Virus record (IMG/VR): IMGVR_UViG_3300025168_000775
Span: 1 to 21,833 of that record
Reading direction: 5' to 3' (one strand)
Source of the DNA: a virus
DNA: 21,833 nt
Below are positions 1,196 through 15,821 of the stretch, in pieces (the stretch's first letter is position 1; every line of letters starts with the position of its first letter). The position numbers and the translations under genes are program-made. The notes under the pieces are model-generated. The model saw nothing but the letters and a program-made list of their open reading frames with translations. It was not told the DNA's origin and made no database searches.

Positions 1196-2119
1196 ATGAG
1201 AACTGCAATAATAAACTTATTAGGAAATGTACCTGTAAGGAAAAACTCACACAGTGCTGGTTGGAATTATGTTATAGCCAGTATCATAGAAGATAGATAT
1301 AAATCTTATCCAGACTTTATCAATAAACCACCTACTGATCTTAACAAGTATGATCTTATAGTTATTAATAATGGAGTTAATTACAAATCAAATAAGTTTA
1401 ATTTTTTTGGTGGTGTTCAACAAGGGACTATAGACAAGTTAATAGCTTTATCAAACTACAAGAATAAGCTAATATCCTTTAACGAGTCAGTAGATTTTAA
1501 ATACCTACTAAAACGTAAAGAGATAACAACTATACCTAATAGAGAGGTCGAGACAGCTTATACAATTAAAGATAAAATGATAGTCGGTGATTCTCATAGC
1601 GTGTCTATTTTTAAGAAAGGTAATGGCATACTTAGAATAGATGGAAAGACTTTACATGGATTTTTAAAGGACCCTTATAGTTACGTTAATTTTGATGAAC
1701 TAAAAGAGGTTACTTTATACTTTGGTAATATTGATGTAAGGTTTCATCTGTGTAGACAAGAGAATCCGGTAGCTGCAACATATAAATTAATAGATAAATA
1801 CGTAGAGTTTATAGGTAAACTAACAAGCGAAGGTAAAAAAGTAACAGTACAAGGTTTACTACCAATTGAAGATGTCTCTAGAAAAATACCTAATACAGGA
1901 CTTTATAACAACAGACCATTTTATGGTACACAAGAACAGAGAAATTGGCTAAGAGAAGAAATTAACTTTGAGCTAAGAAGACAAGCAACAAATCACAATT
2001 ACGAATATCAATCGATGTGGTTAAATTATCCATTAGAGTTTTTTATGATGGAATCAAGACAATCCGTACATATTTGTCCTGACTGGTATCTTAATAAAGA
2101 TTTTATAAATGTTGAATAA
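1196..2119 (+). CDS. SGNH/GDSL-hydrolase-like protein in the DNA-modification block
   Basis: This 307-residue protein is not recognised with confidence. Visible features are a G-D-S-H-S motif at 131-135, preceded by a hydrophobic strand (M-I-V) as in block I of SGNH hydrolases; a G-N-I-D-V-R segment at 177-182 that could correspond to the oxyanion block (G-x-N-D); and a C-terminal S-V-H-I at 290-293 that could carry the catalytic His. The order and spacing fit an SGNH fold preceded by a roughly 125-residue N-terminal domain of unknown type. The usual Asp two residues before the His is not obvious. Its stop overlaps the next gene by 11 bases and it opens the run of coupled genes that ends in the hydroxymethylase-like enzyme. 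A role in trimming, acylating or deacylating a base modification is inference only. Confidence 0.5.
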   Translation: MRTAIINLLGNVPVRKNSHSAGWNYVIASIIEDRYKSYPDFINKPPTDLNKYDLIVINNGVNYKSNKFNFFGGVQQGTIDKLIALSNYKNKLISFNESVDFKYLLKRKEITTIPNREVETAYTIKDKMIVGDSHSVSIFKKGNGILRIDGKTLHGFLKDPYSYVNFDELKEVTLYFGNIDVRFHLCRQENPVAATYKLIDKYVEFIGKLTSEGKKVTVQGLLPIEDVSRKIPNTGLYNNRPFYGTQEQRNWLREEINFELRRQATNHNYEYQSMWLNYPLEFFMMESRQSVHICPDWYLNKDFINVE

Positions 2120-3020
2120 ATTTAAGCAATACTACAGTAAAGCTAAGATGAATCAAGAAAGATTATATCAAGGCTACACTTGGACAAAAGAAGATATAGA
2201 TGATGATCTAATTTATAACGTACCTATATATGATGTAGTCAATAGAAAGTACGCAGCCTTTAGTTCATTGTTAGAAGCAATAAAAAAGAAAGACGATGAC
2301 CCAAAAGAAAATGGTAAATACTTCAATGATCATGAAATTAGTGATATTGATTTTATGTATATGTGTTATTTATTCCGTCTATGTGGTAGCGGTATTAATT
2401 ATAAGCCTAAGGAATCTGTTCCGTTTTATACACACGGTTTTGGAAACTTTTGGATAGTAGACTTATTAAGGTTAAGAATCTTTGACAAAGAAAGATGGTT
2501 AGAGAATATACCAGCCAAAAAATACTCAGACAATAAAGGTTACTTATTACCTATGATACCAGGAGGATTAAGAGATTTTATTTTAAATGAATCTTTAACT
2601 TTGTTTTATTGGATGCATAGCTGTATGGATAACTTAGAGATATTTGAATTAGTAGATCTAGGTAATGACTATCTACAACAGTTAGGTTATAAAAGACAAA
2701 ACTTCGTGTTGACTGCTTTCGCTATGGATATGGCAGAATATTATCCTAACAAAGTGAAAAGAGATAGCAAGGTATATATCGGAACTAACGCAAAGAAATG
2801 TCTAAAAGAAATATATCCAAATGTTAAAGGCATAGGAAGTAATTTAAATGTAACTAATGATTTGTTAGATCAATTGTGTAATTTAACAGGAGATTTCAGT
2901 TACAAGTATGACATGGAAGATGTAGCATGTGATTTTATTAGATATAAAAATAACTTCCAGAGTCCACATCACATTAGAATGAATAACGGAATTAAATACT
3001 ATAACAATGTTTTTAAATAA
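2109..3020 (+). CDS. aGPT-PPlase / HMUDK-helical-domain-like DNA base hypermodification enzyme
   Basis: The 303-residue product matches by eye the helical family that includes alpha-glutamyl/putrescinyl thymine pyrophosphorylases and the helical domain of 5-hydroxymethyl-dU DNA kinases. Landmarks are R-L-Y (18-20), Y-T-W-T-x-x-D (23-29), N-V-x-x-x-D-x-x-x-R (37-46), R-L-C-G-S-G-I-N-Y (90-98), H-G-F-G-N-F-W (109-115) and a C-terminal M-E-D-V-A-C-D-F-x-R-Y (269-279). In known phage pathways (for example ViI, M6 and phiW-14 types) such enzymes displace pyrophosphate from activated 5-hydroxymethyl-uracil in DNA and attach an amine or amino acid. No P-loop kinase domain is fused here. It overlaps the upstream gene by 11 bases and the PLP-enzyme gene by 14, which suggests coordinated translation. 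The family call is from remembered motifs, not a profile search. Confidence 0.6.
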   Translation: MLNKFKQYYSKAKMNQERLYQGYTWTKEDIDDDLIYNVPIYDVVNRKYAAFSSLLEAIKKKDDDPKENGKYFNDHEISDIDFMYMCYLFRLCGSGINYKPKESVPFYTHGFGNFWIVDLLRLRIFDKERWLENIPAKKYSDNKGYLLPMIPGGLRDFILNESLTLFYWMHSCMDNLEIFELVDLGNDYLQQLGYKRQNFVLTAFAMDMAEYYPNKVKRDSKVYIGTNAKKCLKEIYPNVKGIGSNLNVTNDLLDQLCNLTGDFSYKYDMEDVACDFIRYKNNFQSPHHIRMNNGIKYYNNVFK

Positions 3021-3903
3021 ACAAACAGATGATTTTAACTTAGACTACTTCCCTAGTAAAAGAAGCTCATTGTTTCATTACTTAGATATGACTAAAAACT
3101 TTGAATCATCTTTTAGAGACATGATAACAGTTAATGTTGATGGCTACAATGTTATAGATGAAAGTAGATCTAATCCTTATGGTGCGAAGTCAAGATTTGG
3201 TGAATACATGGTTCAAAACGTAAAAGAAAAAGAGATAGTTTACGTACAACCTAGAGTGGGGTTTGCAGGAATTAGCTTATCTTATTTATGTAAAAAATAT
3301 AATAAGAACCTAACGCTAGTGATGCCATCTAGTAAAGAAGCAAGTGAACATCAAAGGTTGTGCATAGAGATGGGAGCTAAGCCATTGTTTTGTAGAATAG
3401 CAGCAATGCCTAATGCAAATAGAATAGCAAAGCGATATGCAGAAGAACGTAATGCTTTCTTCGTGCCACTTGGATTAAAGCATGAACATGTAACTGCAAA
3501 TGCTGTAAGATCGATACATGATTATTTTAAAGATAAAGAGAAACCTAAAAGAATGTGGAGTGTAATAAGTACTGGTGTACTTACTAGAGCTTTACAAATA
3601 GCTTTACCTGATACAGAATTTTTTGCTGTAGCTGTTGCTAGAAATATACAACAAGGTGAATTAGGTCGTGCAAAGTTTTATTCTTATCATAAAGCATTTA
3701 CAAGTGAGTCAGACGTTGTGCCACATAAATTTAATAGTGAAAGATGTTACGATAGTAAAGGATGGGATTACATGCTAAGATATGGTCAAAAAGGTGACTG
3801 GTTTTTTAACGTAGCAGGCCAAGCACCAAAGACAAAGATAGAAGCAAAAGATATAGACTCTTATAGAGATTGGAATGACTTAAAAGATTTTAATGGATTT
3901 TAA
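3007..3903 (+). CDS. PLP-dependent fold-type II enzyme (cysteine synthase / threonine synthase superfamily)
   Basis: The 298-residue protein has the core of the tryptophan-synthase-beta superfamily. E-S-R-S-N-P-Y-G-A-K-S-R (52-63) corresponds to the E...NPTGSFKDR block, making Lys61 the likely Schiff-base lysine. P-R-V-G-F-A-G-I-S-L (82-91) stands where the S-G-N-x-G loop normally is. M-P-S-S-K-E-A (106-112) and E-M-G-A (121-124) match the Rossmann-like strand and the E-x-G-A turn. S-T-G-V-L-T-R-A-L (188-196) replaces the Gly-rich phosphate-binding loop. The altered S-G-N and G-S-G-G loops suggest a diverged substrate. In this position it could build or rearrange an amino-acid-derived side chain on DNA, as PLP enzymes do in other hypermodifying phages. 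It overlaps the downstream gene by 11 bases. The substrate is unknown. Confidence 0.72.
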   Translation: MFLNKQTDDFNLDYFPSKRSSLFHYLDMTKNFESSFRDMITVNVDGYNVIDESRSNPYGAKSRFGEYMVQNVKEKEIVYVQPRVGFAGISLSYLCKKYNKNLTLVMPSSKEASEHQRLCIEMGAKPLFCRIAAMPNANRIAKRYAEERNAFFVPLGLKHEHVTANAVRSIHDYFKDKEKPKRMWSVISTGVLTRALQIALPDTEFFAVAVARNIQQGELGRAKFYSYHKAFTSESDVVPHKFNSERCYDSKGWDYMLRYGQKGDWFFNVAGQAPKTKIEAKDIDSYRDWNDLKDFNGF

Positions 3904-4525
3904 TAATGCTAATGACGCTTTTAAAGTGTTGTACGAAAAGATACATAGAACAGGTAAAGTTGTAGATAACACTATGGCTTTATTTAACATAGGATTTAAT
4001 ATAATTAAACCTTTAGATAATGTTATAAAAACAGACTGGAGAAACTGGAACAAAGATTATGCTGATTATGAATGGCAATGGTATTTGTCAGGAGATAGAT
4101 CTGGTAAAGATATAGCAAAGAGAGCAAAGATCTGGAATAATTGTATGGACAAAGATGGCAATGTGAATTCTAATTATGGTTATCATTGGAAACAAAACAA
4201 TCAGATAGAATATGTCATAAAAGAATTAAGGACTAATCCGAATAGTAGACGTGCTAGTATAAGTATATACAATGCAAAAGATAGGCATAACTTTGAAAGA
4301 GACACACCATGCACTTATGCTATTAACTTTAGTATATATAATGATAAACTTAATATGAGTGTTCTAATGCGCTCTAACGATCTGTGGTACGGTTTCTGCA
4401 ATGATCAATATTGCTTTAGTAAACTACAAGAGAAAATTGCAAACTCATTAGATAAAGAAGTTGGTTACTATTATCACTTCGCACAGAATTTACATTTATA
4501 CAATAACTTTTTAAATAAGAAATAA
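3893..4525 (+). CDS. Thymidylate-synthase-superfamily pyrimidine (hydroxy)methylase
   Basis: At 210 residues it is shorter than E. coli ThyA (264) but keeps the core. R-T-G (19-21) corresponds to the phosphate-binding start, E60-W-Q-W-Y-L-S-G-D to the HELLWFLxGD block, Y-G-Y-H-W (95-99), N-S-R-R (117-120), P-C140 as the catalytic Cys, R160-S-N-D163 and H201-L-Y203. An ungapped alignment from Cys140 puts Asp171 at the position of E. coli Asn177, the residue that selects uracil over cytosine. T4 dCMP hydroxymethylase has Asp there, so dCMP is a plausible substrate, although dUMP cannot be excluded. The residue after the catalytic Cys is Thr instead of His. The gene lies inside the coupled modification block and its TAATG junction runs into the MazG-like gene. 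A simple dTMP-making role is less likely. Confidence 0.78.
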   Translation: MDFNNANDAFKVLYEKIHRTGKVVDNTMALFNIGFNIIKPLDNVIKTDWRNWNKDYADYEWQWYLSGDRSGKDIAKRAKIWNNCMDKDGNVNSNYGYHWKQNNQIEYVIKELRTNPNSRRASISIYNAKDRHNFERDTPCTYAINFSIYNDKLNMSVLMRSNDLWYGFCNDQYCFSKLQEKIANSLDKEVGYYYHFAQNLHLYNNFLNKK

Positions 4526-4818
4526 TGAATATATACGAATTAATAAGATCTTGGGCAAAACAACGTGGCATATATGACTCAGGAGATCCAAAGACACAGT
4601 TAGTAAAATTAGTAGAAGAACAAGGAGAGCTTGCAGAAGCAGTACTTAAAAATGACCCTGTAGAAATAGAAGACGCAATTGGAGATATGATAGTAGTGTT
4701 AACAAACTTAGCTTACTTTTATGATCTTAAAGTTGAAGACTGTATTGAGAGTGCATACGATGAAATAAAAAACAGACAAGGTAAAATGATTAACAATACA
4801 TTTGTTAAAGATGAGTAG
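4525..4818 (+). CDS. MazG-like nucleotide pyrophosphohydrolase
   Basis: The 97-residue product is a single MazG-type domain. E31-E32-x-x-E35 (E-E-Q-G-E-L-A-E-A) on the second helix and E49-D50-A-I-G-D54 on the third form the Mg2+-binding acidic set of all-alpha NTP pyrophosphatases, and a fourth helix ends near residue 85. The enzymes cleave (d)NTPs to monophosphates. Next to a hydroxymethylase-like gene, a likely job is to clear the unmodified triphosphate or supply the monophosphate substrate; this is inference. The start codon overlaps the previous stop (TAATG). The length is typical for phage single-domain members. Confidence 0.85.
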   Translation: MNIYELIRSWAKQRGIYDSGDPKTQLVKLVEEQGELAEAVLKNDPVEIEDAIGDMIVVLTNLAYFYDLKVEDCIESAYDEIKNRQGKMINNTFVKDE

Positions 4819-8817: not shown

Positions 8818-9277
8818 AGCACAAAGAGGATTTTACTTAATTACCGAAGCAATAAAAACAGAATTAATATCAAATCAAGGTATTAAGACTTGTACTTTTG
8901 GTGATATATCAGATATAGACTTACAAAAACAGACTATGTTTCCTTTAGGACATGTAATAATAAACAATGTAACTAATCTTGAGAAAGTATTACAATTTAG
9001 TTTTACAATTCTTACAATGGAACAAATTGACTCTGTCGATGAATACGTGGATGATCTATGGACAGGTAACAGTAACATGCAAGATATATTAAATACTCAA
9101 TTAAGTGTGTCTAATAGATTAATGGCTAAATTAAAAAGAGGACAATTATATGCAGATGGATATGAAGTAGTAGGGAACGCAACTTGTGAACCGTTTTTTG
9201 ATAGATTCGAAAATATATTAGCAGGATGGGCAACTACTTTTACAGTGCAAATGTTTAACGATACAAGTGCTTGTTAA
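8807..9277 (+). CDS. Tail terminator / tail-completion-like structural protein
   Basis: The 156-residue product starts with an amphipathic helix (R-G-F-Y-L-I-T-E-A-I-K-T-E-L) followed by beta-type segments C-T-F-G-D-I-S-D-I-D and F-P-L-G-H-V-I-I-N-N, and a strand F-S-F-T-I-L-T-M. It then has an acidic loop, a helix (D-I-L-N-T-Q-L-S-V-S-N-R-L-M-A-K-L) and a final strand W-A-T-T-F-T-V-Q-M. The helix-strand-helix-strand layout and size resemble tail terminators (lambda gpU-like), and the next gene looks like gp10. The start is fixed by the 11-base overlap with the frameshift extension. The role is inferred from fold pattern and place, so other tail-joining roles are possible. Confidence 0.5.
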   Translation: MADKAQRGFYLITEAIKTELISNQGIKTCTFGDISDIDLQKQTMFPLGHVIINNVTNLEKVLQFSFTILTMEQIDSVDEYVDDLWTGNSNMQDILNTQLSVSNRLMAKLKRGQLYADGYEVVGNATCEPFFDRFENILAGWATTFTVQMFNDTSAC

Positions 9278-9798
9278 TGGATTTTAAAAGAACAAAAGAA
9301 ACTTTAATAGAATTTGCAACTAAAGTTGTTAAGCTTGCTAAAAGAAATGCAAGAAAGAAAAAGGCAAGTGGTAGTCTACAAAGATCTATAAGATATAACT
9401 TACATGAAAGTACAAATTCAATGGAGTTAGATTTCTTAATGAATGACTATGGTAAATATGTAGATGCAGGTGTAGATGGTAAAAGTAAGAAGTATGGCAA
9501 AAGAAAATTTGGATTAAAAACATATAGTTATAAAGATAAGATGCCGCCAACAAAGAAGTTAGATAAATGGGTGGTTAGAAAAAACATTAAAGGAATAAGA
9601 GACGCGAAAGGAAGATTTAAAAACAGACAATCAATACTATTTGCTATAGCTAAAAGTATTTTTGCAAAAGGATTTAAACCAACCTATTTTTTTACAGATG
9701 CATTTGAACAAGAATATAAAAGACTGCCAGATGAATTTTTAGACGCATACTCTTTAGACGTAATTGATTTTTTAGAACAAACAACAAAGACACAGTAA
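9277..9798 (+). CDS. HK97 gp10-like tail completion / neck protein
   Basis: The start is taken at the ATG at 9277, which forms a TAATG junction with the previous gene; the TTG at 9271 adds only two residues. The 173-residue protein is very basic. A-K-R-N-A-R-K-K-K-A-S-G-S-L-Q-R-S-I (about 25-42) followed by S-M-E-L-D-F-L-M-N-D-Y-G-K-Y-V-D-A-G-V-D-G is the pattern of gp10-like proteins (T-G-x-L-x-x-S-I ... Y-G-x-Y-V-E-x-G). A K-D-A/G-R-F region and a helix with F-F-T-D-A-F follow. These proteins help join head and tail or complete the tail. The match is good in the N-terminal half. Confidence 0.66.
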   Translation: MDFKRTKETLIEFATKVVKLAKRNARKKKASGSLQRSIRYNLHESTNSMELDFLMNDYGKYVDAGVDGKSKKYGKRKFGLKTYSYKDKMPPTKKLDKWVVRKNIKGIRDAKGRFKNRQSILFAIAKSIFAKGFKPTYFFTDAFEQEYKRLPDEFLDAYSLDVIDFLEQTTKTQ

Positions 9799-9799
9799 C

Positions 9800-10813
9800 A
9801 TGGCAAATTATTTAGCAAGACTTAGATCTCCATTTTTTATAGAAGAAACCTCAACAGCTGCAACAGTAGGATCTGCGGATGTAACTATTACAATCAACTC
9901 AGTAGTTGTGTATGTATTATCTAAAGATACAATAAGTAAAAAAGTAACAATAGAAGTTGCTGAACTTATACGAGATTATGTAGACACAAAGTGGGATGGA
10001 GTCTTTCCTTATTCAGCTTCTGTTTTAGCAAGTCTTACGATCTTAGCAGCAATTAAAGTAGAATTTTACGTAAACAATAAAAAAGTAAGAGCAACAAACG
10101 CATTAGCAGGAACAGCAGATTCACCAATAGGTGGTCAAACAGTTAATCATAATATATACGGATTTGATGCATACTCTGAGTATCTAGAAGGAGTAAACCA
10201 TCAATTAAGTTATGGTCAATTATTACAATCAGCAACAACAATGTACTTGCCTGAAACTGGAAATGCATATATTCCTAAAATAATAAACACAGCTAATCCA
10301 GTTCCTGCCGCTTCAGTTGAATATGTTACAGTAGCTCCTACGGATACTGTAAAAACTATTGGAGGGATTCAAGTTAATATTGTAAGAATATGTGAACCGA
10401 TCTACGATATTATTAGAGTTGTATTTATGAATAAGTTTGGAGCATTACAAGAATTTAGCTTTAATAAAAAGAATGTATTATCATTAGAGACAGTCCAAGA
10501 AAATTATGAATCAATGTTAATGGGATCTCAATTAGATTACTTGTCTAACAACTTACCACATCAAAAATACGTTTACAATAAACAAGGAAGAGAAACGTTG
10601 CAATTAAATACTGGATACGTAGATGAAGGGCAGTTTGAAACTATAAAACAATTAATGTTATCTGAAAAAGTATGGGCACAAATAGATAGCACTGTTTATC
10701 CTGTTAATATAAATACGAGTTCACTTACTAAAAAAACCAAAATAAATGATAAATTAGTAAACTATTCTTTAGATTTTACTTTTGCATTTGATATAGTAAA
10801 CAGCGTGAGATAA
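9800..10813 (+). CDS. Phage tail structural protein, 337 aa (baseplate/distal tail candidate)
   Basis: The N-terminal 100 residues are beta-rich (A-D-V-T-I-T-I-N, K-K-V-T-I-E-V-A-E-L-I-R-D-Y). The middle is Gly/Asn-rich. The C-terminal 80 residues carry R-E-T-L-Q-L-N-T-G-Y-V-D-E-G-Q-F and L-M-L-S-E-K-V-W, then V-N-I-N-T-S-S-L-T-K-K-T-K and L-D-F-T-F-A-F-D. This C-terminal block recurs in Bacteroidota phage tail proteins as I remember them. It starts one base after the preceding stop and its own stop shares a base with the ATG of the giant tail gene, so the two are likely made together. The exact position in the tail is unknown. Confidence 0.5.
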   Translation: MANYLARLRSPFFIEETSTAATVGSADVTITINSVVVYVLSKDTISKKVTIEVAELIRDYVDTKWDGVFPYSASVLASLTILAAIKVEFYVNNKKVRATNALAGTADSPIGGQTVNHNIYGFDAYSEYLEGVNHQLSYGQLLQSATTMYLPETGNAYIPKIINTANPVPAASVEYVTVAPTDTVKTIGGIQVNIVRICEPIYDIIRVVFMNKFGALQEFSFNKKNVLSLETVQENYESMLMGSQLDYLSNNLPHQKYVYNKQGRETLQLNTGYVDEGQFETIKQLMLSEKVWAQIDSTVYPVNINTSSLTKKTKINDKLVNYSLDFTFAFDIVNSVR

Positions 10814-13800
10814 TGAGCAAATTCCAATTATACATAGGTAGCCAAAGAGTTGAGTTATTTAAAGATGAATCAGTTAGCTTAACTGAAACAATCCAAGATA
10901 TAAAAGATGTATCAAAAGTGTTCACAGATTTTACAAAACCTTTTACACTACCAGCAAGTGATACTAATAACAAGATCTTTAAACATTACTATAAATTTAA
11001 TATTGCACAAGGTTTTACATTTGACGCTAGGAAAAAGGTAAGTGCTAAGATCGAATTAAATACTGTACCTTACAAAGATGGTAAAATTAGACTAGAAGGC
11101 GTAGATCTAGAAAATGGTAAACCTAAATCATATAGAATTACTTTTTTTGGAAACACAGTTAACTTAAAAGATATACTAGGAGATGATTTAATTAACGGAC
11201 TAAGTTGGCTTTCAAATTTTAATTTAACTTATAGCGCTAATAAGATAGAGGAAGTTATGACAACTTCTACAGGTTATTCTCCTACTATAGGTGGTGTACA
11301 ATATAATAAAGCTATAATAGTTCCATTAATTTCTAACACGCAAAGATTATATTATAGCACAACAAATAGAATACCTTATAATAACGCAGATGGAACGATA
11401 AATTCTGCACTAGGTGGAAACTTATACCCTACAGATAATGGCTCAGGAACTAAAACAACTGACGATATACACGGAGTTTTATTTGAAGATCTAACATACG
11501 CTATACAAATAGATCTAATTGTAAAAGCAATAGAGGAAGAATATACTGATATTAAATTCAGCGATGACTTTTTTAATTTAACTAATGGACCTGATAGTTA
11601 TAAAAAACTATACATGTTGTGTCAGAAAAAAGAAGGTAGACCATTCGAAGACATGTCTGTAGGAGAGAGATTAATAACAGGATTTAGTACAGGTATAAAT
11701 AATAACATAGTAACATCGTTTGCAGGTATAAGCGTATTTGGATTAAACCCTAGTCAATTTATAACTGCTAAATGGACTTTAACAACTGGACAAGCTCACC
11801 CTACTTTTACGGCAGTATTAAGAGAAGGTAGTGAAGAAGTACTAAGAAGAAAATTTATTGGAGGTACTAGTTCTACAGCTATTATAACTCAGTTTCTAAC
11901 TAATTCAGAACAAGGATATAATTTAACTATAGAGACAGAGTCTGCGTTTGATATTACAAGTGTGTTGTTTGAAGGTTCTACACCTAGTGGTAATACTTTA
12001 TCATCACAGATAAACACAACAATAGCAGTGGAAGTACAAAAAGAGTTTGTAGTTCAACAACATTTACCAAACATGAAAGTTGTAGATTTTCTTACATCTC
12101 TTTTTAAAATGTATAATCTTACAGCTTTTGAGCTTGATGGAATTATACACGTTAAGACATTAGAAAGCTTTTATTCGAGTGGTTCTTTAAGAGATATAAC
12201 AGAATTTGTAGACCCTCAAACATTACAAATAGATAAAGCTTTACCTTATAGAGAGATTGAGTTTAAATATGATGACACAGAAACAACATTAGCTAAGCAA
12301 CATTTTGAATCAAATGGAGTAAGATGGGGAGCAGCAAAATATATAGAGACAGGTAACTTAAATAGTAACGATCAAAAGTTTGACGTAGTATCTAATTTTG
12401 CACATTTAAAATACGAGAGAATAGTCAGTTCTATAGGTTCTAATACAGATATACAATGGGGATTTTTAGCTAATGAAAAGAATGAACCGTTTTTTCAAAA
12501 CGCAGTTGTGTTTATAGGAGACTTTGTAACACTACCTACAGGTAATACTTTAAGATTTTTAAGTGGTACAACTTCTGTAGGTGAGATACACGATGTAACA
12601 GAATATTGGATGCCATCAAATACAGTTGAACGAGATTCGACAGTTAGCAAAGAAAGTATACATTTCAGCGTAGAGCTAAGCGAATGGGATTCGACGGCGT
12701 CATTTACAGATACTTTGTTTAATAAGTATCATAGATTTTATATTGCAGGCTTATTTAATTCTGCAAAACGATTAAGTAAGATAAAAGCAAGACTACCTAA
12801 AAAGTTTATGCTTAACTATACACTAGCGGATACTGTTATTATAAATCAAGATAGATATAAAATAAATAGTATAACAACTGATTTGTTAAGTGGGTCAAGT
12901 CAATTAGAATTACTTAATGAAACAATAAACGACGCAACTATAACACAAGATGATACTGGTGGAGAGGGTGGTCAAACAGGAGTTGCATTAACAAACGTGT
13001 TAACTTTATTTCAATGTGCAGCTCCTAATTCTACATTTGAAAGCACATTAACATTAGCTGATTTAAATTTAGCAGTAAACATTAGAGTAGAAGATGCAGC
13101 AGGAAACACTTATAGAGTTACAGGTAATAACGTTCCAAATACTCATACAACAAAAGCAGTAACATCAACTGGAGAAACTGGATGCCCTTCTGGAACTACA
13201 CCACCTCCTACTAATTATTATGGATTAAGAAGATGTAGTGATGGAGCAACAAACTTGAGGACTTCTACAGCTGTAGGATCTCCTTCATATCAAACGACAC
13301 AACAAGTCTTTGATTCAAGTTCAGTAAAATACGTGATTGAAAATTCATCAACCGCAGATACTGTACCTAGTATAACTATAGCTTCAACTCCAAGTCCAGT
13401 TCAGTTAACATGTTCTGGAAATTCATCAGGTGGTACAACTCATAATTACTCGTTGACTCCTTGTTGTGGTGGTACAGTTTTATTTGGTTTTAGTTCAAGT
13501 AACTCGTTATCAGGTATTAGAATTTATCAAAATCAAAGTTACACTTTAGCTGCTTCTAATACTAGCGGAGCTATAAATATAGATCTATTAAACTCTGGTT
13601 CTTGTCCTATTAGTTACTATAGTTTAAATAGTTGTTCAGACGGATCCTTTCAGCATCATGCTCGAAGTGTATGTAGTAATTTAAACAACACGCAATTAAC
13701 TTATAACGGAACTTGTTATTCAGTACAAAATTCAACAAACACAACAGGGACCGTGAATTTAGATACACTAAACTCTTGTACTTGTAGCAATCCAAATCCA

Positions 13801-15207
13801 ACGTATTATCTTTTAAGAGATTGTGCTACTGTTACTATAGTTAGAACCTCTACAACAACAACCGATCTAACTTTAAATGTAAGTTCTACATTAGCTAATG
13901 CATCTAGAGTGCAAGATACAAATACAGGTAAATGTTACACAGCTAATTCTACTACACAAGATACAGTAACTTATCCAACAGCTATAGGAGCAGTAACATC
14001 TCTTGGAGTTAATGATTGTCCATCTACACCTTGTACCACAACTCAATACTATAATTTACAACAGTGTTCTACAGGTAACACAGGATTTATTAGTGCACAA
14101 ACAACTGATCAAATAGCTTTATCAGTAAATGATATGGTGACTTCAGGCTCAACAAATGGACCGTTATATAAAGTGTTAGGAAATGCTACGAGTGGAAATT
14201 CTGTTGGAACTGTTTTTGCAAATGCAGCTACTGCTTGTCCTGCTTATTACACTTTGACTCAATGTTATACGAATCAGACAGGGTATAGAACTGATAACAC
14301 AACTACAGAAATTACATTATCAAATGGACGAAGAGTACAAGGTCCTAATGGTATGCCTTATACAGTTACAGGGACAGTAGGGTCAGGGTTAGCAAATATA
14401 GGTACAGTAACAGATACAGGTCAAACAGGTTGTCCAACAATTACAGGATCTACTCAATATTATCAATTAGAAAGATGTTCAGATAGTGTTACTGGTTTCT
14501 TATCACTACAAACAGTTAATGATATAAATTTAAGTACAAATGATGTAGTAGGTTTAGGTAGTGCATCAGGAGTTACATATCAAGTAACAGGTACTGGATT
14601 AGCAAATACAGGTACACAAGTTGGAGTTGTTGCAGATACAGGAAACACTAATTGTTTAACACCTGTTACACCACCAGTTGTACCGGGTACTACAACTTAT
14701 GCTAGATTTATATCATGTGACGATCCTACAGGTGCTATTATTAGTGTATCTAGTACACAATCTATAGGAACTTGGTGGGTTATTTCAGAAGTTGGTCAGT
14801 TTGAATGTTATAGATGGTTAGATAATACACAAGGAGTAAATCCTATTGAGTTAAATAGTTCTAACTTTAATTTTTACACAGTAGAGTCTACAGCTGGTGC
14901 TAATTGTAGTGACTGTCAATCTGTAGTTCCTCCTCCAGCTCCAGCACCTAGACCTCCATCACAAACTTGTTTTACGTTAAGTTTATTAAGATCGTCTACT
15001 GCTTTAAATCTATGTGATGTAGTTCCTACTACAGTGTATGCTAATAATTCTACACTTGCATCAGCATCAATTATATATTCTAATAGTGATTGTACTACTT
15101 TAGAATCAGTAGATAGGTATTTAGCATCTAGTATTGGAGCAGGTTATTACTTTTGGAACGCATCTGCACAAACATTAACAGGTTCATTTACTTTAAACTG
15201 TCCATAA
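10813..15207 (+). CDS. Large tail/adhesin protein with about ten Cys-containing C-terminal modules
   Basis: The largest gene in the window encodes 1464 residues. The first ~730 residues look like a baseplate or central tail protein: beta-rich with V-F-T-D-F-T-K-P-F-T-L-P-A (36-48), then a long mixed domain ending near E-L-L-N-E-T-I. From about 732 the protein changes to tandem modules of 55-90 residues, each opening with Y-Y-x-L-x-x-C (near 801, 879, 935, 998, 1079, 1145, 1216; variants at 1296 and 1386) and usually closing with a T-G-x-x-x-C-P-like turn. Thr, Ser, Asn and Cys are enriched. A Pro-rich linker (P-P-P-A-P-A-P-R-P-P) precedes the last module. The modules are probably receptor-binding or glycan-binding domains. 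Its stop overlaps a prolyl-hydroxylase-like gene. Tail location is confident by context; receptor binding is inferred. Confidence 0.75.
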   Translation: MSKFQLYIGSQRVELFKDESVSLTETIQDIKDVSKVFTDFTKPFTLPASDTNNKIFKHYYKFNIAQGFTFDARKKVSAKIELNTVPYKDGKIRLEGVDLENGKPKSYRITFFGNTVNLKDILGDDLINGLSWLSNFNLTYSANKIEEVMTTSTGYSPTIGGVQYNKAIIVPLISNTQRLYYSTTNRIPYNNADGTINSALGGNLYPTDNGSGTKTTDDIHGVLFEDLTYAIQIDLIVKAIEEEYTDIKFSDDFFNLTNGPDSYKKLYMLCQKKEGRPFEDMSVGERLITGFSTGINNNIVTSFAGISVFGLNPSQFITAKWTLTTGQAHPTFTAVLREGSEEVLRRKFIGGTSSTAIITQFLTNSEQGYNLTIETESAFDITSVLFEGSTPSGNTLSSQINTTIAVEVQKEFVVQQHLPNMKVVDFLTSLFKMYNLTAFELDGIIHVKTLESFYSSGSLRDITEFVDPQTLQIDKALPYREIEFKYDDTETTLAKQHFESNGVRWGAAKYIETGNLNSNDQKFDVVSNFAHLKYERIVSSIGSNTDIQWGFLANEKNEPFFQNAVVFIGDFVTLPTGNTLRFLSGTTSVGEIHDVTEYWMPSNTVERDSTVSKESIHFSVELSEWDSTASFTDTLFNKYHRFYIAGLFNSAKRLSKIKARLPKKFMLNYTLADTVIINQDRYKINSITTDLLSGSSQLELLNETINDATITQDDTGGEGGQTGVALTNVLTLFQCAAPNSTFESTLTLADLNLAVNIRVEDAAGNTYRVTGNNVPNTHTTKAVTSTGETGCPSGTTPPPTNYYGLRRCSDGATNLRTSTAVGSPSYQTTQQVFDSSSVKYVIENSSTADTVPSITIASTPSPVQLTCSGNSSGGTTHNYSLTPCCGGTVLFGFSSSNSLSGIRIYQNQSYTLAASNTSGAINIDLLNSGSCPISYYSLNSCSDGSFQHHARSVCSNLNNTQLTYNGTCYSVQNSTNTTGTVNLDTLNSCTCSNPNPTYYLLRDCATVTIVRTSTTTTDLTLNVSSTLANASRVQDTNTGKCYTANSTTQDTVTYPTAIGAVTSLGVNDCPSTPCTTTQYYNLQQCSTGNTGFISAQTTDQIALSVNDMVTSGSTNGPLYKVLGNATSGNSVGTVFANAATACPAYYTLTQCYTNQTGYRTDNTTTEITLSNGRRVQGPNGMPYTVTGTVGSGLANIGTVTDTGQTGCPTITGSTQYYQLERCSDSVTGFLSLQTVNDINLSTNDVVGLGSASGVTYQVTGTGLANTGTQVGVVADTGNTNCLTPVTPPVVPGTTTYARFISCDDPTGAIISVSSTQSIGTWWVISEVGQFECYRWLDNTQGVNPIELNSSNFNFYTVESTAGANCSDCQSVVPPPAPAPRPPSQTCFTLSLLRSSTALNLCDVVPTTVYANNSTLASASIIYSNSDCTTLESVDRYLASSIGAGYYFWNASAQTLTGSFTLNCP
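13006..15204 (+). repeat. Coding tandem repeat: YYxLxxC modules
   Basis: About ten diverged modules are visible at the protein level. The best conserved three (starting near 14047, 14245 and 14458) share Y-Y-x-L-x-x-C, then T-G-(F/Y)-x-(S/T), a strand with (I/L)-x-L-S, V-x-G/x, Y-x-V-x-G and G-T/V-V-x-x-x-G-x-T-x-C. At the DNA level the copies are clearly diverged, so the array is old or under strong diversifying pressure and is not a fresh duplication. Confidence 0.7.
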
Positions 15208-15821
15208 TGAAAGAAATAGATAACTTTATTTCACTTGAAGAGTCAAAATACTTAATAAATATGATTAATAAGTATGCAACTAAGTCTATGGTTGTTGGAA
15301 ATGGACAAAAATATACAGATTATAGTAGTCAAAGAACATCATACACATCTAATTTAGTATCAGATGACCCTACAGTTGAGTCTATACAGCTAAGAATTGC
15401 TAGATATTTAGGTATACCAGTTACAAAAGGTGAGGCTTTACAAGGTCAAAGGTATGAGAAAGGCCAATTTTTCAAGCCACATGTTGATTATTTTAGTAAG
15501 GATAGTTATGATAAGAACTGTTTAGCTAGTGGAAATAGAACATTTACTTTTATGTTATACTTAAATGATGACTTTACAGGTGGTACAACTAAGTTTCCAC
15601 ATATAAATCTAGAAATACAACCAAAAAAATGTAAAGGAGTGGTTTGGAATAATTTACAAAACGGAGTTATTAATGAATACATGCAACACAGCGGAGAAGA
15701 AGTAACTAATGGTGTAAAGTATATCATAACATCTTGGTGGCGTGAGAATATATGGAATAATAGTGAAGATCAAAAGGAATACGAAAAAAAACTAAAAAGT
15801 AGTCAATTAAGTATTATATAA
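15207..15821 (+). CDS. 2-oxoglutarate/Fe(II) oxygenase, prolyl-4-hydroxylase-like
   Basis: The 204-residue enzyme has the full set of family residues: G-Q-R-Y-E-K-G-Q-F-F-K-P-H92-V-D94 (the H-x-D iron pair), F-M-L-Y-L-N-D-D-F-x-G-G-T-T-K-F-P (115-131), distal His161 and Lys171 (V-K-Y-I-I-T-S-W-W-R), which should bind 2-oxoglutarate. These enzymes hydroxylate Pro or other residues using O2. The start is the ATG at 15207 in a TAATG junction; a TTG at 15153 would run back through the upstream gene. Its place directly behind the Pro/Thr/Asn-rich tail protein suggests that protein as substrate. That is inference; phage 2OG oxygenases also act on nucleic acid or host proteins. Confidence 0.85.
   Translation: MKEIDNFISLEESKYLINMINKYATKSMVVGNGQKYTDYSSQRTSYTSNLVSDDPTVESIQLRIARYLGIPVTKGEALQGQRYEKGQFFKPHVDYFSKDSYDKNCLASGNRTFTFMLYLNDDFTGGTTKFPHINLEIQPKKCKGVVWNNLQNGVINEYMQHSGEEVTNGVKYIITSWWRENIWNNSEDQKEYEKKLKSSQLSII

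Follow-up and report, generated by a model that had tools for sequence, protein, structure and literature searches.

A conserved six-gene virus cassette with a predicted role in hypermodification of 5-hydroxymethylcytosine

The six-gene core

The stretch analyzed here, referred to below as the window, is a 21,833-base virus fragment from IMG/VR (record IMGVR_UViG_3300025168_000775) with a GC content of 32%, whose terminase is closest to those of Flavobacterium and Bacteroides phages, at less than 60% identity. Near one end it carries six consecutive plus-strand genes with a predicted role in DNA modification. An earlier note, made from the letters of the window alone, had presented the four middle ones as a coupled candidate DNA hypermodification cassette. 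These encode an SGNH-like protein of 307 amino acids (positions 1196 to 2119), an all-helical protein of 303 amino acids, here termed HEL (2109 to 3020), a fold-type II pyridoxal phosphate (PLP) enzyme of 298 amino acids, P0003 (3007 to 3903), and an enzyme of the thymidylate synthase (TS) family of 210 amino acids, P0004, a predicted dCMP hydroxymethylase (3893 to 4525). The overlaps of 11, 14, and 11 bases between successive genes, which the note had listed, are present in the open reading frame (ORF) coordinates. The MazG-like gene that it had placed directly behind them (4525 to 4818) overlaps the TS gene by one base and codes for a 97-residue MazG-like NTP pyrophosphohydrolase (Pfam MazG, 9.4e-8; PRA-PH, 9e-5); it is the last gene of the core. 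The first, just upstream of the SGNH gene, encodes a DUF6378 protein of 95 amino acids (892 to 1179; Pfam ID PF19905, 1.7e-12), whose start is probably an internal ATG near position 916.

Relatives of HEL number 180 in a first scan of IMG/VR and 213 in a wider one; none were found in GTDB genomes or in GenBank phages. About 137 virus loci from many metagenomes preserve the order of the genes. HEL and the PLP enzyme are each present in 136 of the 137, SGNH in 128, and TS in 127, with contig ends explaining many of the gaps. In a less redundant set of 41 loci, SGNH and HEL are found in all 41, the PLP and TS enzymes in 40, MazG in 38, and DUF6378 in 37. The SGNH and HEL genes overlap or lie at most 20 bp apart in 122 loci and form a single fused ORF in four (L112, L113, L122, and L146, the first and last of which share one contig). 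Relative to locus L004, the ratio of nonsynonymous to synonymous substitution rates (dN/dS) is 0.06 to 0.08 for SGNH, HEL, TS, and MazG, a set that leaves out the PLP gene because of a stop inside the coordinates taken. Because the order is kept in some 137 loci and dN/dS is this low, the arrangement is not due to chance. Judged from sequence, DUF6378-SGNH-HEL-PLP-TS-MazG is a real conserved unit, of which the four genes of the earlier note form the middle; that note had the genes right and drew the unit too small, missing DUF6378 upstream and leaving MazG outside.

This conservation bears on the simplest reading of the locus, namely, that of an ordinary phage with 5-hydroxymethylcytosine (5hmC), in which only the hydroxymethylase and MazG would be needed for the base and SGNH, HEL, and PLP would be unrelated neighbors. 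It would fit the position of the TS gene, which lies more than 100 bp from the PLP gene in 25 loci and has sometimes moved. Such a reading is very unlikely given the purifying selection and the presence of the six genes in 37 to 41 of the 41 loci, compared with at most 15 for any other gene family. A separate search with the six core proteins found no match among the PADLOC models, and a known anti-phage defense system was rejected on that ground.

Protein families of the core

P0004 belongs to the thymidylate synthase superfamily (Pfam, 1.6e-27), as the earlier note had proposed. Its closest relative in the PDB is the dCMP hydroxymethylase of phage T4 (2.2e-16). Solved relatives also include MilA, the CMP hydroxymethylase that serves mildiomycin synthesis, and pathways that make small molecules or modify RNA or surface glycans often employ SGNH and PLP enzymes. 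A role of the six genes in a pathway of this kind is nevertheless quite unlikely: the T4 enzyme is nearer to P0004 than MilA is, and SGNH homologs in phages with hydroxymethylcytosine adjoin DNA-modification proteins of the HMUDK_hel family.

The dCMP hydroxymethylase signature consists of an Asp at the third position ahead of the catalytic Cys, a Ser and a Tyr two residues apart, and a cytosine-recognizing Asp (PMC6400193). P0004 holds all of it, as D137-x-x-C140 (codons at 4301 to 4303 and 4310 to 4312), S93-N-Y95, and D171 (4403 to 4405). In an alignment of 31 sequences, S93, Y95, and C140 are invariant and D137 is found in at least 90%. The cytosine-recognition Asp (D171 in P0004, equivalent to position 177 of Escherichia coli TS and 179 of the T4 enzyme) is present in 124 of 124 resolvable relatives, as is Cys146 of the E. 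coli numbering, which corresponds to Cys140 of P0004; Thr147 is present in 122. In a functional screen, Asp177 in phage TS-family enzymes marked contigs with modified cytosine, and TS and PRA-PH domains co-occurred (PMC8670742). P0004 is therefore strongly predicted, from its signature residues, to convert dCMP to 5-hydroxymethyl-dCMP. Since the TS-family enzyme carries this signature, the predicted starting base is 5hmC and not 5-hydroxymethyluracil (5hmU), the main point on which the earlier note, whose comparison implied 5hmU, is corrected.

The pathways known from phages ViI and M6, which the earlier note had invoked, act on thymidine through 5hmU. That the PLP enzyme shares a family with its M6 counterpart and that HEL has a related fold would be expected of this route as well. 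With Asp177 and the T4-type signature in every relative, and with no kinase of the M6 type found in the window or the 137 partial loci, thymidine hypermodification is extremely improbable, and the route was rejected on the universality of Asp177; the evidence points to cytosine.

P0003 matches the Pfam PALP family at 1.4e-6, which is below the Pfam cutoff, and phrog_7093 at 5.6e-27. The latter family includes the PLP enzymes of phages M6 (2.2e-159) and Pam3, so that the fold-type II assignment of the earlier note stands. The Schiff-base Lys61 (codon at 3187 to 3189), aligned with that of cysteine synthase, is present in 134 of 134 relatives. M6-like thymidine hypermodification cassettes encode a pyrimidine hydroxymethylase and, besides the phrog_7093 PLP enzyme, aGPT-Pplase1, a nucleotide kinase, an rSAM protein, and aGPT-Pplase2 (PMC9476957). 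Run against phages 44RR, 25, PTm1, and M6, the PLP profile found nothing, but this search was insensitive, failing on the known M6 enzyme as well. In Erythrobacter phage ZS04 (L083:2326-4764; also R6L in L082), an 812-residue protein contains ParB-like, N6/N4-methyltransferase, and M6-type PLP (phrog_7093) regions.

HEL was assigned by its fold. Neither a Pfam hmmscan of 30 members nor sequence and fold searches of the PDB gave a match. The AlphaFold model is all helical, with a predicted local distance difference test score (pLDDT) of 88.5, and was compared by Foldseek with predicted viral structures. The top match is a relative with 61% identity; the next is a protein with an amino acid:DNA transferase (ADDT) domain (E, 8.7e-10; TM, 0.79; probability, 1.00). 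These are followed, all at a probability of 1.00, by a second ADDT-domain protein (1.3e-4), aGPT-PPlase clade 1 (2.9e-3), and HMUDK_hel (0.026). To the eye, the order of motifs resembles that of this group (WT..D and then a C-D/E-F-x-x-Y ending), a resemblance that is not significant. On the strength of the model, we conclude that HEL is a fold-level relative of the ADDT/aGPT-PPlase/HMUDK_hel group, not to be filed in PF18723 or PF18724. A second, weak match to the HEL profile (17 bits) is found at L145:3535-4437, on a contig with the full cassette.

The SGNH-like protein contains the motifs GDSH and GNIDxRxH and a late His (H292), all invariant even in relatives with about 20 to 34% identity; the codons of Ser133 and His292 lie at 1592 to 1594 and 2069 to 2071. 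Its model (pLDDT, 87) matches the fold of a protein of T4-like Aeromonas phages and, weakly, those of SGNH esterases. The earlier note had seen the SGNH partner as unfamiliar from these pathways, and none is described in the open-access literature searched, which likewise yielded no paper on an SGNH protein or an inositol-phosphate synthase in phage base modification.

Predicted pathway

The thymidine pathway relies on a kinase that activates 5hmU (PMC6449724). When the 5hmU DNA kinases of the P-loop type from M6 and Pam3 were used as queries, no relative was found in the window, where the earlier note had also seen none, or in the 137 related partial loci. Searches of partial contigs detected PF18724 in none of 19 records and PF18723 in none of 10. 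The conserved unit, the M6-family PLP enzyme, and the ADDT/aGPT-PPlase fold of HEL support the proposal of a DNA hypermodification cassette, and we consider it likely that this cassette carries out a kinase-free hypermodification of 5hmC in phage DNA. That the six-gene system concerns 5hmC is well supported, and it very probably first makes 5hmC and then decorates this base in the DNA.

In the proposed scheme, the TS-family enzyme would hydroxymethylate dCMP to 5-hydroxymethyl-dCMP, as its signature residues strongly indicate. The MazG-like enzyme, perhaps with DUF6378, might then remove dCTP and so favor 5-hydroxymethyl-dCTP in replication, by analogy with gp56 of T4. That SGNH and HEL act together is well supported, because they are found fused, overlapping, and in recurrent association. 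They could form one enzyme acting on 5hmC in DNA, in which HEL, with its amino acid:DNA transferase-like fold, would be the part that handles the DNA and the base. The Ser/His catalyst would likely be SGNH, whose action on the 5-hydroxymethyl group would be to activate, acylate, or trim it, and SGNH may take the place of the kinase of the thymidine pathway. The PLP enzyme of M6 is thought to make or reshape an amino-acid-derived group in that pathway, and the one encoded here might, by analogy, do the same. The modified base would presumably shield the DNA from host nucleases.

The same enzymes could in principle work on nucleotides, with SGNH, HEL, and PLP acting on 5-hydroxymethyl-dCMP or 5-hydroxymethyl-dCTP and the finished nucleotide being polymerized. 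The nucleotide-acting hydroxymethylase and MazG-like genes do share the operon, and a DNA-binding domain in HEL is unproven. Yet HEL has a fold found in proteins that bear the annotation amino acid:DNA transferase, and the best-known relatives decorate the base after replication (PMC6449724), which makes this order of events unlikely.

Several observations weigh against kinase-free decoration of 5hmC in DNA as set out above. Since both the window and the related loci are incomplete pieces, a kinase or a glycosyltransferase may sit elsewhere in these genomes, and the kinase queries represent the M6/Pam3 type only. The locus counts measure association and give no probability, as the loci are not independent. 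SGNH has no match in Pfam, NCBIfam, or PDB sequences, and the SGNH-like assignment of the earlier note is upheld by motifs and fold. Across the relatives, Q, R, or K occupies the site three positions ahead of H292; because the Asp of the D-x-x-H block is not kept, a classical triad is unsupported, membership among the catalytic hydrolases is not claimed, and, to judge from these residues, a Ser/His dyad or a nonhydrolytic role is possible. Finally, hhalign comparisons of HEL with the HMUDK_hel and ADDT alignments are not significant; in column-shuffle tests, z was 2.3 with one smaller set and -0.45, within the shuffled range, with the deepest alignment. As neither profiles nor motifs reach significance, only the fold is claimed for HEL. 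The aGPT-PPlase/HMUDK-like character that the earlier note had ascribed to the 303-residue protein thus holds for its fold and not for its sequence profiles, none of which match. That note had taken placement outside this group by profile searches as evidence against its proposal; at the sequence level the searches do place HEL outside, which we judge to be outweighed by the fold match.

SGNH and helical proteins in other phages

The 43 phage records in which tblastn finds SGNH homologs belong to Stenotrophomonas phage IME13, Tenacibaculum phages PTm1 and PTm5, and T4-like Aeromonas phages. ORF233c of Aeromonas phage 44RR2.8t (L164:7001-9388), annotated as hypothetical, is a 795-residue fusion of an SGNH domain (tblastn, 2e-28) with an HMUDK_hel-like C-terminal part (PF18723, 8e-4, below the gathering score). 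The gp42 proteins of 44RR and phage 25 have the dCMP-type Asp (D177), and ORF233c is a candidate for the enzyme that decorates the 5hmC of 44RR. It resembles the window pair in joining a homologous SGNH domain to a helical domain in a phage with D177-type gp42; unlike HEL, its helical domain resembles HMUDK_hel. Aeromonas phage 25 (L165) has a stand-alone SGNH gene at a distance of two genes from one for a UDP-galactopyranose mutase. The order there (L165:4776-5840) is the mutase (GLF, 5e-54), an unidentified ORF of 358 amino acids, and SGNH, which hints at a galactofuranose-type modification.

A scan with a divergent SGNH alignment returned 80 loci, with a ranking biased toward 44RR-like ones. 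An HMUDK_hel-like gene is nearby in 62 of them, an Ino1-like (inositol-3-phosphate synthase) gene in 72, a C5-methyltransferase-like gene in 23, and a D177-type dCMP hydroxymethylase in 21. One Ino1-like protein scores 2.7e-87 by NCBIfam, and representative matches to HMUDK_hel (PF18723) score 1.7e-16 (L251), 2.3e-13, and 8.4e-10. In L227, L239, and L251, the HMUDK_hel-like gene overlaps SGNH by one base. Because 62 of the 80 loci have such a neighbor, with one-base overlaps and the fusion in 44RR, an SGNH protein beside or fused to a helical partner from this fold group is, as far as sequence comparison indicates, a recurrent association in unrelated phages, many of which have a dCMP hydroxymethylase. 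The third gene varies with the context, being a PLP enzyme in the window cassette and Ino1-like in other clusters.

Clusters of SGNH, Ino1-like, HAD, FkbM or C5-methyltransferase-like, and HMUDK_hel genes are found at L198:7655-12416, L204:7219-13400, L239:2903-9657, and L251:3758-9678, some with a dCMP hydroxymethylase; clusters of the SGNH/Ino1/HMUDK_hel type possibly make an inositol-related modified cytosine. Viral contigs L174 to L253 share with the window the SGNH protein and a helical partner, often with DUF6378 or a D177-type dCMP hydroxymethylase. They differ in the place of the PLP enzyme, which is taken by an Ino1-like enzyme; HAD, FkbM, or C5-methyltransferase-like genes often accompany it. 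In the Ino1-type cluster of L204, a CysK-like PLP enzyme (8989-9864; PALP, 8e-68) lies directly behind SGNH, so that a fold-type II PLP enzyme adjoins SGNH in a second context.

Like the M6/SN1-like thymidine cassettes (PMC9476957), the window cassette encodes a pyrimidine hydroxymethylase and a phrog_7093 PLP enzyme together with a protein whose fold is that of the aGPT-PPlase/ADDT group. In contrast to these, it has a hydroxymethylase of the dCMP type (Asp177) instead of the dUMP type (Asn177), and the SGNH protein in place of an M6-type kinase, with no match to that kinase, PF18724, or PF18723 in the records searched. Among phages with 5hmC, T4 carries glucosyl-5hmC and RB69 arabinosyl-5hmC, and carbamoyl-5hmC also occurs (PMC8670742). 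The window set has, as they do, a dCMP hydroxymethylase bearing the signature residues of the T4 enzyme; unlike them, it has SGNH, HEL, and PLP, in a conserved core in which neither a glucosyltransferase nor a carbamoyltransferase was recognized. The cassette is a widespread type, predicted to hypermodify cytosine and undescribed as far as the open-access literature shows.

If this prediction is correct, amino-acid-type hypermodification extends beyond thymidine and can skip the kinase step regarded as its entry point. The SGNH and helical pair would then be a candidate for 5hmC phages whose decorating enzyme is not known, the T4-like Aeromonas phages perhaps among them. Novel DNA bases, and the enzymes that produce them, are of use as tools and account for restriction resistance. 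More tentatively, and with the odds somewhat against it, an SGNH protein paired with a helical protein of the aGPT-PPlase fold might be a general kinase-independent installer of varied small molecules on 5hmC in phage DNA, amino-acid-derived here and inositol- or sugar-derived elsewhere, with the window version making a previously unseen amino-acid-type cytosine.

In Brevibacterium phage LuckyBarnes (L095:1-1131), an HMUDK_hel-like gene overlaps a gene annotated as beta-glucosyl-HMC-alpha-glucosyltransferase. Elsewhere in the window, positions 15201 to 15821 encode a 2OG-Fe(II) oxygenase (2e-14) amid structural genes. A 1,464-residue ORF at 10813 to 15207, with a second half made of repeated Cys/Thr/Ser-rich segments, probably encodes a tail or surface protein.

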